DNA from: Gammaproteobacteria bacterium | GTDB taxonomy: Bacteria > Pseudomonadota > Gammaproteobacteria > DAOVJZ01 | Length of the DNA: 32,321 nt | Reading direction: 5' to 3' | Assembly (NCBI GenBank): GCA_029882995.1 | Contig: JAOUJV010000017.1 | Location: 1 to 32,321 of the forward strand | Shown here: positions 3,285-27,132 of the stretch, piece after piece | Layout: every line of letters starts with the position of its first letter | Numbering within the stretch: position 1 is the first letter of the stretch | Program-made: the position numbers and the translations under genes | Notes under the pieces: generated by a model | Seen by the model: only the letters and a program-made list of their open reading frames with translations | The model's database searches: none | What the model was told of the DNA's origin: nothing

Positions 3285-3792
3285 TCCTGTCGTTTGTTAT
3301 ATCGGGCTGGGCAGTAATCTTGATCATCCGATCGAACAACTTAAACAAGCCATAAATGAATTATCCGCTTTAGAGAACAGTTTGCTATTCGTGCAATCCA
3401 GTTTCTATCAGAGCGCACCAATGGGGCCGCAGGATCAACCGGATTTTATTAATGCGGTTGCAGGCCTGAAAACCTCCCTCTCAGCCAATGATTTATTACT
3501 CCAGTTACAGGGGATTGAACAACAACATGGGCGGGTTCGGGAACAATACTGGGGGCCGCGGACGCTGGATCTAGACCTGCTTTTATATGGGGAACAGGTC
3601 ATAAATACCGATAATTTGCAGGTTCCGCATCCGGGGATACCCGAGCGCGGCTTCGTGCTGTATCCTTTATATGAGATAGCACCTGATCTGGAGATTCCGA
3701 CGGGCAAGTCGGGGAGAGAATCGTTGAAAGAGCTGGTGGCAAAGTGTGCAGACAAAACAACAAAAATATTGAATGATGACAAAGTTAGTTAA
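3274..3792 (+). CDS. folK: HPPK, 6-hydroxymethyl-7,8-dihydropterin pyrophosphokinase
   Basis: This 172-residue protein has the full FolK pattern: YIGLGSNLDHP at the N-terminus, the substrate-binding APMGPQDQPDFINAV segment (48-62), and the signature WGPRTLDLDLLLYG (93-106) carrying the paired Mg-binding aspartates Asp99 and Asp101. The C-terminal PHPGIPERGFVLYPL is also typical. It transfers pyrophosphate from ATP to 6-hydroxymethyl-dihydropterin in folate synthesis, in the cytoplasm. It overlaps pcnB by 11 nt and the next kinase gene by 20 nt, so the three genes are almost certainly one transcript. The C-terminal tail is slightly longer than in E. coli (159 residues), and the overlap with the downstream gene accounts for part of this. 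Confidence 0.95.
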   Translation: MNNNPVVCYIGLGSNLDHPIEQLKQAINELSALENSLLFVQSSFYQSAPMGPQDQPDFINAVAGLKTSLSANDLLLQLQGIEQQHGRVREQYWGPRTLDLDLLLYGEQVINTDNLQVPHPGIPERGFVLYPLYEIAPDLEIPTGKSGRESLKELVAKCADKTTKILNDDKVS

Positions 3793-4435
3793 CAATCATC
3801 CGGGTTATGTCGTAGTTGAAGGACCAATTGGGGTGGGTAAAACCAGTCTGGCGCGGCGTCTGGCTGACTCTTTTGGCAGTGAATTGTTGCTCGAAGGTGC
3901 GGAAGAAAACCCGTTTCTGGAACGTTTTTATCGTGACCCCAAAAATGCGGCATTACCGACACAATTGTTTTTCCTGTTTCAGCGGGCACGCCAGTTACAG
4001 GATATGCGTCAGTCGGATATGTTTCGACCCGTACGTGTGGCCGATTTCCTGATTGAAAAAGATCGTATGTTTGCCCGTATGACCCTTGACCAGCATGAGC
4101 TGGAACTCTATGACCAGATTTATGAAAAAATGACACTTGATGCACCGGTACCGGATCTGGTGATTTACCTGCAGGCACCGGTTGATGTATTACAGGCAAG
4201 GATCACAAAACGTGGTATTGACTATGAGCAGCATATGCAGGGGGATTATTTAAGACGTGTAGCCGAGTCTTATATGGAATTCTTTTATCATTACACCGGT
4301 TCACCCTTGTTGATTGTAAATGCAACCGAAATCGATTTGGCCTCGAATGAAAAGGATTACAACAACCTGCTGGAGCAGGTTTGTAATATTAAAAGAGGGC
4401 GGCACTACTTCAATCCCATGCCTATCGCACTGTAA
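3773..4435 (+). CDS. Deoxynucleoside kinase family protein (dAdo/dGuo kinase-like)
   Basis: This is a 220-residue P-loop kinase. The Walker A motif is GPIGVGKTS (17-25). EENPFLERFY and LFFLFQRARQL follow, as in deoxyadenosine/deoxyguanosine kinases. DFLIEKDRMFA (91-101) corresponds to the substrate-binding acidic/DR segment, and RGIDYEQ lies in the lid region. Such enzymes phosphorylate deoxynucleosides for salvage; the exact substrate cannot be read from sequence. It overlaps folK by 20 nt, and kinases of this type are often placed between folK and panB in gammaproteobacteria. Two adjacent ATGs (3773 and 3776) are possible starts. The stop codon (4433-4435) lies inside the left arm of the structured repeat at 4430-4575. 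Thymidylate kinase was considered, but the ENPFLE and DFLIEKDR motifs favour the deoxynucleoside kinase family. Confidence 0.85.
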   Translation: MMTKLVNNHPGYVVVEGPIGVGKTSLARRLADSFGSELLLEGAEENPFLERFYRDPKNAALPTQLFFLFQRARQLQDMRQSDMFRPVRVADFLIEKDRMFARMTLDQHELELYDQIYEKMTLDAPVPDLVIYLQAPVDVLQARITKRGIDYEQHMQGDYLRRVAESYMEFFYHYTGSPLLIVNATEIDLASNEKDYNNLLEQVCNIKRGRHYFNPMPIAL

Positions 4436-4575
4436 ATAGGTCTATTGCTTTCTGGGGGTGTTATAAATATGCTCAAAATGTTTATGCCCATTGTTGGGGT
4501 ACTCATTTACTTCGTGTAAACTCCGCTTTTTCGCATATTTATGTCTACCCAGAAAACAATATCCCTGATTTACAG
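4430..4575. repeat. Structured intergenic element, copy 1 (60-nt core with complementary arms)
   Basis: The core (4473-4532) is 50/60 identical, without gaps, to the core at 26654-26713. It contains hairpin A, TGCCC-N7-GGGTA (4485-4501), and hairpin B, TTTAC-TTCGT-GTAAA (4506-4520). The flanks form a long imperfect inverted repeat. The innermost 10 bp ATAAATATGC/GCATATTTAT are perfect (4463-4472 with 4533-4542), then TTTCTGGG/CCCAGAAA, ATTG/CAAT, and at the outer edge CTGTAAAT/ATTTACAG (4430-4437 with 4568-4575). The left arm overlaps the stop codon of the upstream kinase gene. The arms share no sequence with those of copy 2 yet stay complementary. I do not recognise a named family. It lies in the 173-nt gap before panB and could affect readthrough or mRNA stability. 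Confidence 0.85.
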
Positions 4576-4608: not shown

Positions 4609-5412
4609 ATGCCAGATAAAAAAATCACATTAACTACATTACGCAATATGAAACAGGCAGGAGAGAAATTTGCCTGTTTGACAGCGTATGATGCGACCTT
4701 TGCACGCCTGCTGGATGATGCCGGTGTTGAAGTTGTGTTGGTGGGTGATTCATTGGGTATGGTAGTGCAGGGTCAGGAAAGTACCTTACCTGTCACTATG
4801 GATGAAATGATTTATCATACCCACAATGTCAGTCGTGGATGTTCAAATTCTCTGGTACTGGCGGATATGTCTTTCATGAGTTATGCCACACCGGATCAAG
4901 CCATGTTTAATGCCGGACGTTTAATGGCAGAAGGCCATGCCCATGCAGTGAAACTCGAAGGCGGTGCCGTGATGGTTGAAACAGTCAAACAACTGACAGC
5001 TCATGGTATCCCTGTTTGTGCACATCTTGGTTTATTACCACAATCAGTCAATAAACTGGGTGGCTATCGTGTGCAGGGCAAGGAAGCGGAAGCGGCTAAT
5101 ACTATTTTGCAGGATTCCATGGCAATGCAGGAAGCAGGTGCGGATCTTTTATTATTTGAATGTATTCCTTCATCTCTGGCGGCCGAGATTACCAGCAAGG
5201 TCGATATACCGGTTATTGGTATTGGTGCCGGTGTAGATTGTGATGCACAGGTACTGGTGTTGCATGACATGCTCGGTATTACACCCGGAAAGCGCCCGAA
5301 GTTTTCCAAAAACTTTATGGAAGAAGCAGGCAGTATTCAGCAAGCCATCAGTAATTATGTAAAGGAAGTGAAGGCCGGTACTTTCCCGGGGCTGGAACAC
5401 AGTTTTTCCTGA
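4609..5412 (+). CDS. panB: Ketopantoate hydroxymethyltransferase
   Basis: PanB converts alpha-ketoisovalerate and 5,10-methylene-tetrahydrofolate to ketopantoate, the first step of pantothenate synthesis. The 267-residue protein has the TIM-barrel family motifs: CLTAYDATFA, VGDSLGMVVQG with Asp47, ADMSFMSY with Asp86, and KLEGG with Glu117. These three are the expected metal/substrate residues. GLLPQSVNKLGGYRVQGK and PVIGIGAG follow, and length is normal (E. coli 264). The ATG at 4609 is the start that gives the family's N-terminus; an ATG at 4595 is out of frame. The ribosome binding site is poor (CAGCAAGA). It is separated from the folK/kinase genes by the structured element and from panC by a degenerate palindromic repeat. 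It uses a folate derivative, a functional link to folK upstream. Confidence 0.96.
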   Translation: MPDKKITLTTLRNMKQAGEKFACLTAYDATFARLLDDAGVEVVLVGDSLGMVVQGQESTLPVTMDEMIYHTHNVSRGCSNSLVLADMSFMSYATPDQAMFNAGRLMAEGHAHAVKLEGGAVMVETVKQLTAHGIPVCAHLGLLPQSVNKLGGYRVQGKEAEAANTILQDSMAMQEAGADLLLFECIPSSLAAEITSKVDIPVIGIGAGVDCDAQVLVLHDMLGITPGKRPKFSKNFMEEAGSIQQAISNYVKEVKAGTFPGLEHSFS

Positions 5413-24733: not shown

Positions 24734-26611
24734 ATGGCACTGTTACAGATTGCTGAGCCCGGACAATCCGATGCACCGCATCAGCGCAAGCTGGCGGCCG
24801 GCATTGATCTTGGTACAACCAATTCTCTGGTTGCCACTGTCCGAAGCGGGGTGCCGGAAACCTTGCCCAATGAACAAGGTGAACATCTGTTGCCATCGGT
24901 TGTGCAATATAAAAAAGGGTCTGCGCCGGTAGTAGGCAGTGAAGCCAGAGCTGCAGCAACAAAAGATCCGCTTAATACCATTATTTCTGTAAAACGTTTT
25001 ATGGGGCGTGGCCTTGATGATGTGAAATCACTTGGTTCCCGTTTGCCCTATGAATTTGTTGAATCTGAATCTGATATGCCGCGTTTACATACAGTGGCGG
25101 GGGATTTCAGTCCGGTCGAGATCTCGGCGGATATTCTGAAAACATTAAAGCAACGTGCGCAAGACACACTGGGAGATGAACTTACCGGTGTTGTCATTAC
25201 TGTACCGGCCTATTTTGATGATGCCCAGCGCCAGGCTACAAAAGATGCTGCCAGACTTGCAGGACTCAACGTATTGCGACTAATCAATGAACCAACCGCT
25301 GCCGCTGTGGCCTACGGGCTTGATCAAGGTGCTGAAGGTGTACATGCCGTATTTGATCTGGGAGGCGGTACATTTGATATTTCCATTTTGCGTTTGAATA
25401 AAGGGGTATTTGAAGTACTGGCTACATCCGGTGATTCAGCGCTCGGTGGTGATGATATGGATCATGCAATTGCAGAATGGATTATGCAGCAAGCAGATAT
25501 AAAAGATGATGTTGATCATGCCCAGTTGCGTCGTTTGATGCATGTTGCACGTGACGTAAAAGAAGCGTTGACAGACAGTAACAGTACAACAGTAAAAGTT
25601 GAATTAAGTGATGGTGCATTTTGGGAAGGAGAGTTGACCAGAGAAACATTTAATCAACTGGTTGATCCGTTGATTCGCAAGACACTGGTTCCCTGTCGTC
25701 GCACACTACGTGATGCCGGTATTACGGCTGAAGAAATTCAGGAAGTGGTGATGGTGGGTGGATCCACCCGTGTACCGCGAGTGCGTGAATTGGTGGGTGA
25801 ATTTTTTGGCCGCGAACCACTGGTTGATATTGATCCGGACAAGGTAGTTGCCATTGGTGCAGCAGTACAAGCTGATATTCTGGCAGGCAATAAACCGGAT
25901 GGTGAAATGCTGTTACTGGATATTACTCCGCTTTCACTTGGACTTGAGACCATGGGTGGACTGGTTGAGAAAGTGATTTCACGTAATACCCCGATACCGG
26001 TCGCTCGTGCACAGGATTTCACCACGTTTAAAGATGGCCAGACGGCACTGGCACTTCATATACTTCAGGGTGAACGTGAACTGGTTTCCGATTGTCGTTC
26101 ACTTGCGCGTTTTGAATTGCGTGGTATTCCACCGATGGTGGCCGGTGCTGCACGTATTCGCGTTACCTTTCAGGTGGATGCCGATGGTTTGTTAAGTGTG
26201 ACTGCAAAGGAACAAACAACCGGCACTGAAAGCAGTATTCAGGTAAAACCTTCTTACGGTCTGACGGATAATGAGATCGAAGGCATGCTACGGGATTCAT
26301 TCGAACATGCAAAAGAGGATGCCGGTATGCGCATGTTGCGTGAACAACAGGTCGAGGCTGAACGCGTTATTGAAGCACTCACTGCGGCACTGGATGAAGA
26401 TGGTAATGTATTATTATCAGAACAGGAACGCACTGAAATTAACACATGCCTGCAAAATCTGATTAATATAAAGACCGGTAATGATATCCGCGCAATCAAA
26501 AAGGCTATTAGCCAACTGGATAAAGCAACACAGGATTTTGCTGCACGAAGAATGAATGCAAGTATTAATAAGGCTTTAGCGGGCCACAAACTGGATGAGT
26601 TCAAAAACTAG
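24734..26611 (+). CDS. hscA: HscA, Hsp70-family chaperone for IscU
   Basis: This specialised Hsp70 recognises the LPPVK motif of IscU and promotes cluster release. The 625-residue protein (E. coli 616) shows the actin-like ATPase motifs [49 protein letters not shown], and [13 protein letters not shown]. The connect/linker region [11 protein letters not shown] and [17 protein letters not shown] follow, then the substrate-binding domain and a helical lid. The N-terminal [17 protein letters not shown] is the usual HscA extension, which distinguishes it from DnaK. It follows hscB by 2 nt. A 144-nt structured element begins on the base after its stop and separates it from fdx, which normally follows closely. 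Confidence 0.97.
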
Positions 26612-26755
26612 AGCATGAAAGTCTTTTCTCCCAATACGGCGTCAAAAATCAGCTCAGAATACTTGTGCCCGTATATTGGGTACTCATTTACTTCGTGTAA
26701 ACTCCGCTTCTTCGCTGATTTTTTTCTTGTCTTGGAAGAAAATCCAATTCATGCT
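26612..26755. repeat. Structured intergenic element, copy 2, inside the isc operon
   Basis: The core (26654-26713) matches copy 1 at 50 of 60 bases with no gap and keeps hairpin A (TGCCC-N7-GGGTA, 26666-26682) and hairpin B (TTTAC-TTCGT-GTAAA, 26687-26701). The 7-nt loop of hairpin A differs while its stem is unchanged. The arms pair over about 42 nt: AAAAATCAGC/GCTGATTTTT next to the core (26644-26653 with 26714-26723), then TTTTCT/AGAAAA, CCAA/TTGG, and AGCATGAA/TTCATGCT at the outer ends (26612-26619 with 26748-26755). It starts at the first base after hscA. Unknown family. Confidence 0.85.
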
Positions 26756-26793
26756 GGTGCGATTTAAATTTTTTTAATACTGAGTTTTTTAAA

Positions 26794-27132
26794 ATGCCAC
26801 AAATAATATTCTTACCTCATGAAGAGATATGTCCTGATGGGGCTGTTATTGAAGCTGAATCAGGCACTACGGTGCTTGATGCAGCACTTGCCAACGGGAT
26901 TGATATAGAGCATGCCTGTGAGAAATCCTGTGCCTGTACTACGTGTCATGTGATTGTACGTGAAGGTTTTGATTCCATGCAGGAGTCGGATGAAACAGAA
27001 GATGATTTACTCGACAAGGCATGGGGACTGGAGTCGGAGTCACGATTAAGTTGTCAGGCGATAGTCGCTGATGAAGATCTGGTGGTAGAAATTCCAAAAT
27101 ACACCATCAATATGGTGAGTGAAGGTAAATAA
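26794..27132 (+). CDS. fdx: Isc-type [2Fe-2S] ferredoxin
   Basis: Fdx supplies electrons for cluster assembly in the Isc system. The 112-residue protein (E. coli 111) has cluster ligands Cys42, Cys48, Cys51 and Cys87, plus the conserved free Cys46, all at E. coli numbers (HACEKSCACTTCH and SRLSCQ). The C-terminal IPKYTINMVSEG is typical. It is 182 nt from hscA rather than nearly adjacent, because of the structured element at 26612-26755. The Shine-Dalgarno sequence is weak (a GAG about 9 nt upstream). iscX follows by 3 nt. Confidence 0.97.
   Translation: MPQIIFLPHEEICPDGAVIEAESGTTVLDAALANGIDIEHACEKSCACTTCHVIVREGFDSMQESDETEDDLLDKAWGLESESRLSCQAIVADEDLVVEIPKYTINMVSEGK

Follow-up and report, generated by a model that had tools for sequence, protein, structure and literature searches.

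The two self-complementary elements in the window, the whole stretch of 32,321 nucleotides of DNA that was analyzed, are members of one dispersed family, and it is probable that this family consists of MITE-like non-autonomous transposable elements mobilized and rebuilt by the mechanism proposed below. Empty sites, TNA target duplications, and ends of the IS5 type support the classification as a MITE-like, non-autonomous transposable element. The earlier note had been unable to assign the elements to a family; this holds for RNA families, as Rfam 15 returned no family at the gathering score and a permissive search with copy 1 gave a best E value of 3.6, but an assignment as a MITE-like mobile element can be made.

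Copy 1 occupies positions 4430–4575 of the forward strand (146 nt), between a deoxynucleoside-kinase-like gene (3773–4435) and panB (4609–5412). Its left arm (4430–4471) begins with CTGTAAAT, which contains the last codon and the stop codon (4433–4435) of the upstream gene. The arm is followed by a conserved 60-nt core (4472–4531) containing hairpin A (TGCCC-7-GGGTA; 4485–4501) and the terminal hairpin B (TTTAC-TTCGT-GTAAA; 4506–4520), and the right arm (4532–4575) terminates in ATTTACAG, which is CTGTAAAT inverted. Copy 2 (forward strand, 26612–26755; 144 nt) lies in the isc operon between hscA, which ends at 26611, and fdx (26794–27132), with its core at 26653–26712, hairpin A at 26666–26682, and hairpin B at 26687–26701. 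The outermost part of its left arm, AGCATGAA (26612–26619), includes AGCATG, a portion that varies among the copies of its subfamily and pairs with its own right end CATGCT (26750–26755). The left half of the internal loop between its outer and inner stems reads GGCGTC (26638–26643). An asymmetric tail (26756–26774), delimited by eye from a comparison of alleles, extends from the inverted repeat to a TTAA shared with the empty site and was probably inserted along with the element.

The positions and lengths given in the earlier note were correct to the base, and its description of the two copies was reproduced: the cores are identical at 50 of 60 positions without a gap, five of the seven loop bases of hairpin A differ, and hairpin B is the same in both. 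The arms pair within each copy (35 of 46 and 31 of 44 aligned columns matching) and are unrelated between the copies, with just 24–28 of 47–51 columns matching. Chance folding was ruled out, as all four strands of the two copies folded better than 200 of 200 shuffles, with z-scores of -4.9 to -7.5 for DNA and -5.8 to -8.7 for RNA. When the complementarity of each copy's own arms was compared with that of shuffled flanks for 19 copies in the genome, 15 scores were reached by no more than 2 of 200 shuffle pairs; among the other four, one was reached by 3 of 200 and one by 12 of 200, and for two the fixed register gave no score.

Members of the family measure approximately 120–160 bp and carry no gene. 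From the outside inward they are composed of a variable outer stem, an internal loop in which conserved [GT]GCGTT faces GCCTTG, a 10-bp stem of variable sequence but preserved pairing, a small conserved loop of TC opposite TC, a short stem, and a tip of the form CTCA-TTTAC-n-GTAAA-CTCCGC. The hairpin B tip is present in nearly all copies, and in some of them its stem has changed in concert to TGTAC/GTACA, CTTAC/GTAAG, or TTAAC/GTTAA. Both sides were changed in some sequence at 19 of the 28 stem pairs; when the partner was shifted by one, two, or three columns, the proportion of paired cells fell from 90% to at most 48%. Hairpin A is optional, about half of the copies having no such insert, so the three-way junction suggested earlier fails as a general description. 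Other lineages have different hairpins at the position of hairpin A or on the right side. Lineage-specific extra hairpins such as GACCTACATGGATGTAGG and GACTTGCAACATCCCTGTTGC were observed on the right-hand side at six loci (L027, L033, L055, L100, L136, and L142), with similar ones in distant genera.

The two copies had been taken for a pair, which proved to be wrong, since about 20 copies are dispersed in the same genome: BLAST with copy 1 detected 11 places, a search for the tip pattern gave 14 matches (0 for the reversed control), and covariance model R1, built from 49 sequences of many taxa, detected 20–21 copies. The sister genome G001, of the same genus and 77% complete, contained 18. 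Among 27 genomes searched, the genomes of this analysis being drafts and MAGs, 10 contained the element (3 to 62 copies) and none was detected in the other 17; other relatives carried 62 (G022), 56, and 24 copies. Of 299 genomes sampled from the phylum, 85 were positive at E ≤ 1e-6, as were 34 of the 154 genera represented. With more than a quarter of the sampled genomes positive, many genomes are expected to carry unannotated copies.

The element is common to Proteobacteria and Bacteroidota. When one genome per species was searched for the exact pattern, the matches listed included Pseudomonas, Halomonas, Vibrio, Nitrosomonadales, and Chromatiales, as well as Tannerellaceae, Prevotellaceae, and Alistipes of the Bacteroidota, and the genes on one core-bearing contig (L077) were Bacteroidota-like in our own judgement. 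The core matched eight plasmid records, with no annotated feature beneath the element; it had no match among phages, and the consensus core had none in 5,426 E. coli genomes, which rules out ERIC as its identity. In Salinicola and Modicisalibacter the element immediately follows rho, at what appears to be the same site (L036:474–578 and L066:2295–2399), so one insertion or more may be ancient and passed on vertically.

Comparison of the two genomes of this genus indicated that the element moves, as the orthologous kinase–panB junction (copy 1) and hscA–fdx junction (copy 2) of G001 both lack it, an absence that could in principle be due to loss. Several further copies face an empty orthologous site, in either direction between the two genomes. 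Full-length relatives of copy 2, arms included, are located elsewhere in G001 with 90% and 86% identity. Fresh insertions are bordered by short target duplications of the TA type, as in G022, in which the commonest subfamily has the ends GAACCTGTTCACGATCTCG: identical 3-bp TNA repeats flank 19 of the 21 copies having both ends, compared with a mean of 7.1 on permutation (19 reached in 0 of 10,000). A 4-bp duplication was rejected for these copies in favor of 3 bp. One inner element was also found in G022 under three different outer arms. Plasmid-borne copies, inspected by eye, have CTAG or TTAA on both sides, and the IS5 elements L317 and L314 have flanks of the same type.

In this genus, divergence and tails obscure the target duplications, as a non-palindromic stretch of a few to approximately 25 bases often separates the inverted repeat from the right-hand target copy. 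Asymmetric tails of about 10–25 nt before the target copy were seen in the right flanks of L188 and L204 as well as at 26756–26774 of the window. The tail of L188 provides AAGGAATAAGG ahead of the downstream start codon, and the genes at the corresponding empty site overlap (TAATG).

In some species the element terminates in the terminal repeat of an IS5-family insertion sequence. For example, the genome G010 contains an IS5-family insertion sequence (NF033581) with the ends GGAACCTCTGATTAATT, and the element ends GGAACCACTGATTAAT (L097) and GAAACCTCTGATTAAC (L258) of other taxa are nearly equal to these. MITEPsy1 of Pseudomonas syringae offers a precedent, as an element with IS5-type ends and a CTAG or YTAA duplication that was observed to transpose (PMC3189936). 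From this precedent, the IS5-like ends, and the CTAG, TTAA, and TNA duplications, we infer that IS5-type transposases mobilize the element in trans. The family has the defining features of a MITE apart from a resident autonomous partner, which was not detected: no mobilizing insertion sequence with matching ends was identified in the genome of the window or in G022, and a search for a full-length one with the G022 ends recovered decayed elements only. PF01609 transposases were absent from the copy-rich genomes G001, G024, and G005, and only housekeeping or unrelated genes lie between neighboring copies.

The earlier note had proposed either that the arms covary under selection for a long stem or that each copy created its arms from local DNA, and both contribute, with covariation across taxa in the inner stems and, in this genus, outermost bases derived from local DNA. 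The arm has two layers, an inner shared terminal repeat and, only in this genus, a few local outermost bases. In this genus, most of the arm is common to the copies of a subfamily, whereas the outermost bases vary from copy to copy, yet remain complementary to the opposite end of the same copy. With flanks and register picked by the analyst, outward matches beyond the shared arm summed to 38 over 12 copies of the first subfamily (10.9 on permutation; 0 of 20,000) and to 26 over 6 copies of the second (5.6; 179 of 20,000), compared with 9 over 18 fresh copies in G022 (8.6).

The origin of these outermost bases could be followed at the empty sites. At L210, the host gene ends in the left half CATGATTAA, coding sequence that the empty genome also has, but that genome contains nothing corresponding to the right half TTAATCAT. 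The same or nearly the same pattern was seen at L208, L212, and L176 and at window copy 1 (CTGTAAAT). The right end in this genus is therefore best read as an inverted copy of the host left flank. Both self-primed extension at insertion and later template switching would fit. In E. coli, template switching has been documented to turn imperfect palindromes into perfect ones (PMC7202029), and it is also known to generate hairpins and stems with compensatory changes (PMC8794818).

The mismatches in the stems differed between the strands. On the strand shown, A.C mismatches outnumbered G.T mismatches by 75 to 25 (p = 6e-7), a count that leaves out one invariant T.G pair of that strand; the numbers were 20 and 4 in this genus and 53 and 20 in other taxa. 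As a control, 14 tRNA genes from the same loci had 18 G.U and 0 A.C. The A.C excess on the strand shown corresponds to tolerated G.T pairs on the reverse strand. Consistent with this, the reverse strand was the more stable one for 91 of 97 core sequences as RNA and 93 of 97 as DNA, although the cores share conserved loops and thus are not 97 independent cases, and the alignment (A2) was fitted to the model. The reverse-strand loops, GA opposite GA and GGAG opposite TGA, would be compatible with sheared G.A pairs. Selection appears to see the folded reverse strand, as DNA or RNA, and the lack of a constant flank bearing a promoter would favor DNA. The folded single-strand DNA intermediate suggested in the earlier note is possible, with the reverse strand folding better.

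Placement in this genus was strict. Twenty-five of the 28 copies follow a sense gene, with a stop codon 13–33 nt from the model start in 20 of these 25, and all 17 tandem-gene sites have the element in one orientation (17 versus 0; p = 1.5e-5). G022 showed no orientation bias (10 versus 6). Transcript selection or transcription-coupled insertion is a possible explanation for the one-way orientation in this genus. Inspected by eye for a replication-strand bias, coordinates from three complete genomes appeared inconsistent.

According to the proposed mechanism, an IS5-type DDE transposase acting in trans would cut at the element ends. The shared arm of each subfamily would be its terminal repeat, and the ends would be exchangeable between lineages. 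A single strand would fold into a long hairpin, and DNA synthesis on this fold, self-primed at insertion or by later template switching, would copy one flank inverted onto the other. Such fold-back synthesis would make the outermost bases local, the left ones running into the host stop codon and the right ones complementary to them. The center would be kept because the specific structure of the reverse strand, with tandem G.A-type internal loops and a closed hairpin tip, matters to the element. Two observations count against a plain MITE: it leaves a center conserved across phyla unexplained, and the strict one-way orientation in this genus is not expected for symmetric DDE insertion. A more far-reaching reading can be offered tentatively, in which these are cross-phylum mobile hairpins defined by their center, with a strand-specific folded core, including its conserved G.A-type internal loops, needed for propagation via some further factor, and with ends renewed at every insertion, either by fold-back copying of target DNA or by exchange with terminal repeats of resident insertion sequences.

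The covariation across taxa, the conserved loops, the strand-asymmetric mismatches, and the strict placement behind stop codons in this genus would also be expected of a structured RNA under selection, either a cis element or an antisense RNA, whose arms covary since the RNA stem is needed. This is nevertheless unlikely. The sense transcript in this genus would bear the strand that folds worse, no Rfam family matched, no constant flank could hold a promoter, some orthologous sites within the genus have the element in one genome and lack it in the other, and fresh copies are identified as insertions by their target duplications. A secondary use of the element as RNA is conceivable.

A center that is conserved while the ends are not, a folded reverse strand, and orientation-specific insertion in this genus could likewise point to a single-stranded-DNA element handled by a structure-specific enzyme (HUH/Y1 or a tyrosine recombinase, as for REP and attC), with the center as recognition site. 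This appears improbable, as Y1 enzymes do not make TNA direct repeats, the outer ends match IS5 ends in some taxa, and Y1_Tnp, absent from the genome of the window, occurred in 6 of the 10 positive genomes and in 10 of the 17 negative ones. Insertion into pre-existing palindromes or hairpins would directly yield locus-specific inverted flanks, but is very improbable, since the empty sites of L210, L212, L176, and copy 1 have no inverted partner (that of L210 retaining the left half, CATGATTAA), which contradicts it at these loci if the empty allele is ancestral.

The preferred reading, a MITE-like transposable element, can be compared with described systems. MITEPsy1 (approximately 100 bp; related to ISPsy2 of the IS5 family) is, like this family, gene-less, dispersed, and mobile, and both have IS5-type ends with a CTAG or YTAA target duplication (PMC3189936). 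Unlike this family, no conserved structured center or covarying arms have been described for MITEPsy1. It was not among the plasmid matches of the core search, and its plasmid may lie outside that collection. RUP, NEMIS/Correia, ERIC, and QMITE are likewise small, non-coding, hairpin-forming, and often gene-adjacent, with terminal inverted repeats (PMC2229807, PMC10969869), but they are lineage-specific and defined by their ends, whereas here one center occurs in two phyla with many different ends. REP/BIME/REPIN with RAYT are palindromic intergenic repeats with a strand-specific fold, as here (PMC3733652, PMC3116915), and REPs are 20–40 bp with a GTAG/CGTC head (PMC3733652). This family differs in reaching up to about 150 bp, in its target duplications, and in having no association with a Y1 (RAYT) transposase, for which reason REP/REPIN was rejected. 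Integron attC sites also act as a folded single strand with variable self-complementary arms, and their ends (R boxes) and extrahelical bases are conserved. In this family the hairpin tip and internal loops are conserved rather than the ends.

A literature search with the core letters of both strands gave unrelated matches only, and searches of the open literature turned up no MITE or palindrome family with these features, though one may have been described under another name. What is new is that conservation lies in the center, and that the folded strand, judged from stem mismatches and energies, appears to be the reverse one. The family is unusual for a MITE in having a center conserved across phyla, ends that differ by lineage and are partly rebuilt from host DNA, and a strand-specific fold. 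Bacterial MITEs are usually viewed as decayed insertion sequences defined by their ends, and a family held together by its center across Proteobacteria and Bacteroidota would need another account of what is recognized. It also carries a warning for RNA searches, as fold-back copying in DNA can yield covarying stems as well, and it provides a record, from natural genomes, of template switching at palindromes.

Rearranged copies were also observed. In the genome of the window, L176 and L183 have a partial second left arm just past the right end (GGAAGCGGCACTGGCAGTATTGA and GGAAGCGGTGCTGGCTGTGTTGAGAAGAGA), as would be left by a tandem copy that was inserted and then mostly lost. Comparison of L262 with L205 showed that, where G001 has a full element, the genome of the window retains both outer arms, still partly paired, with the center deleted (AGATACCTTTGTACGAAAGTC...TTCGTACAAAAAAGATGTATCT). 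In the coronafacic acid gene region of a Pseudomonas amygdali plasmid (L256), a CTAG-flanked copy with the altered tip stem TTTAC/GTAGA lies next to an IS630 transposase gene.
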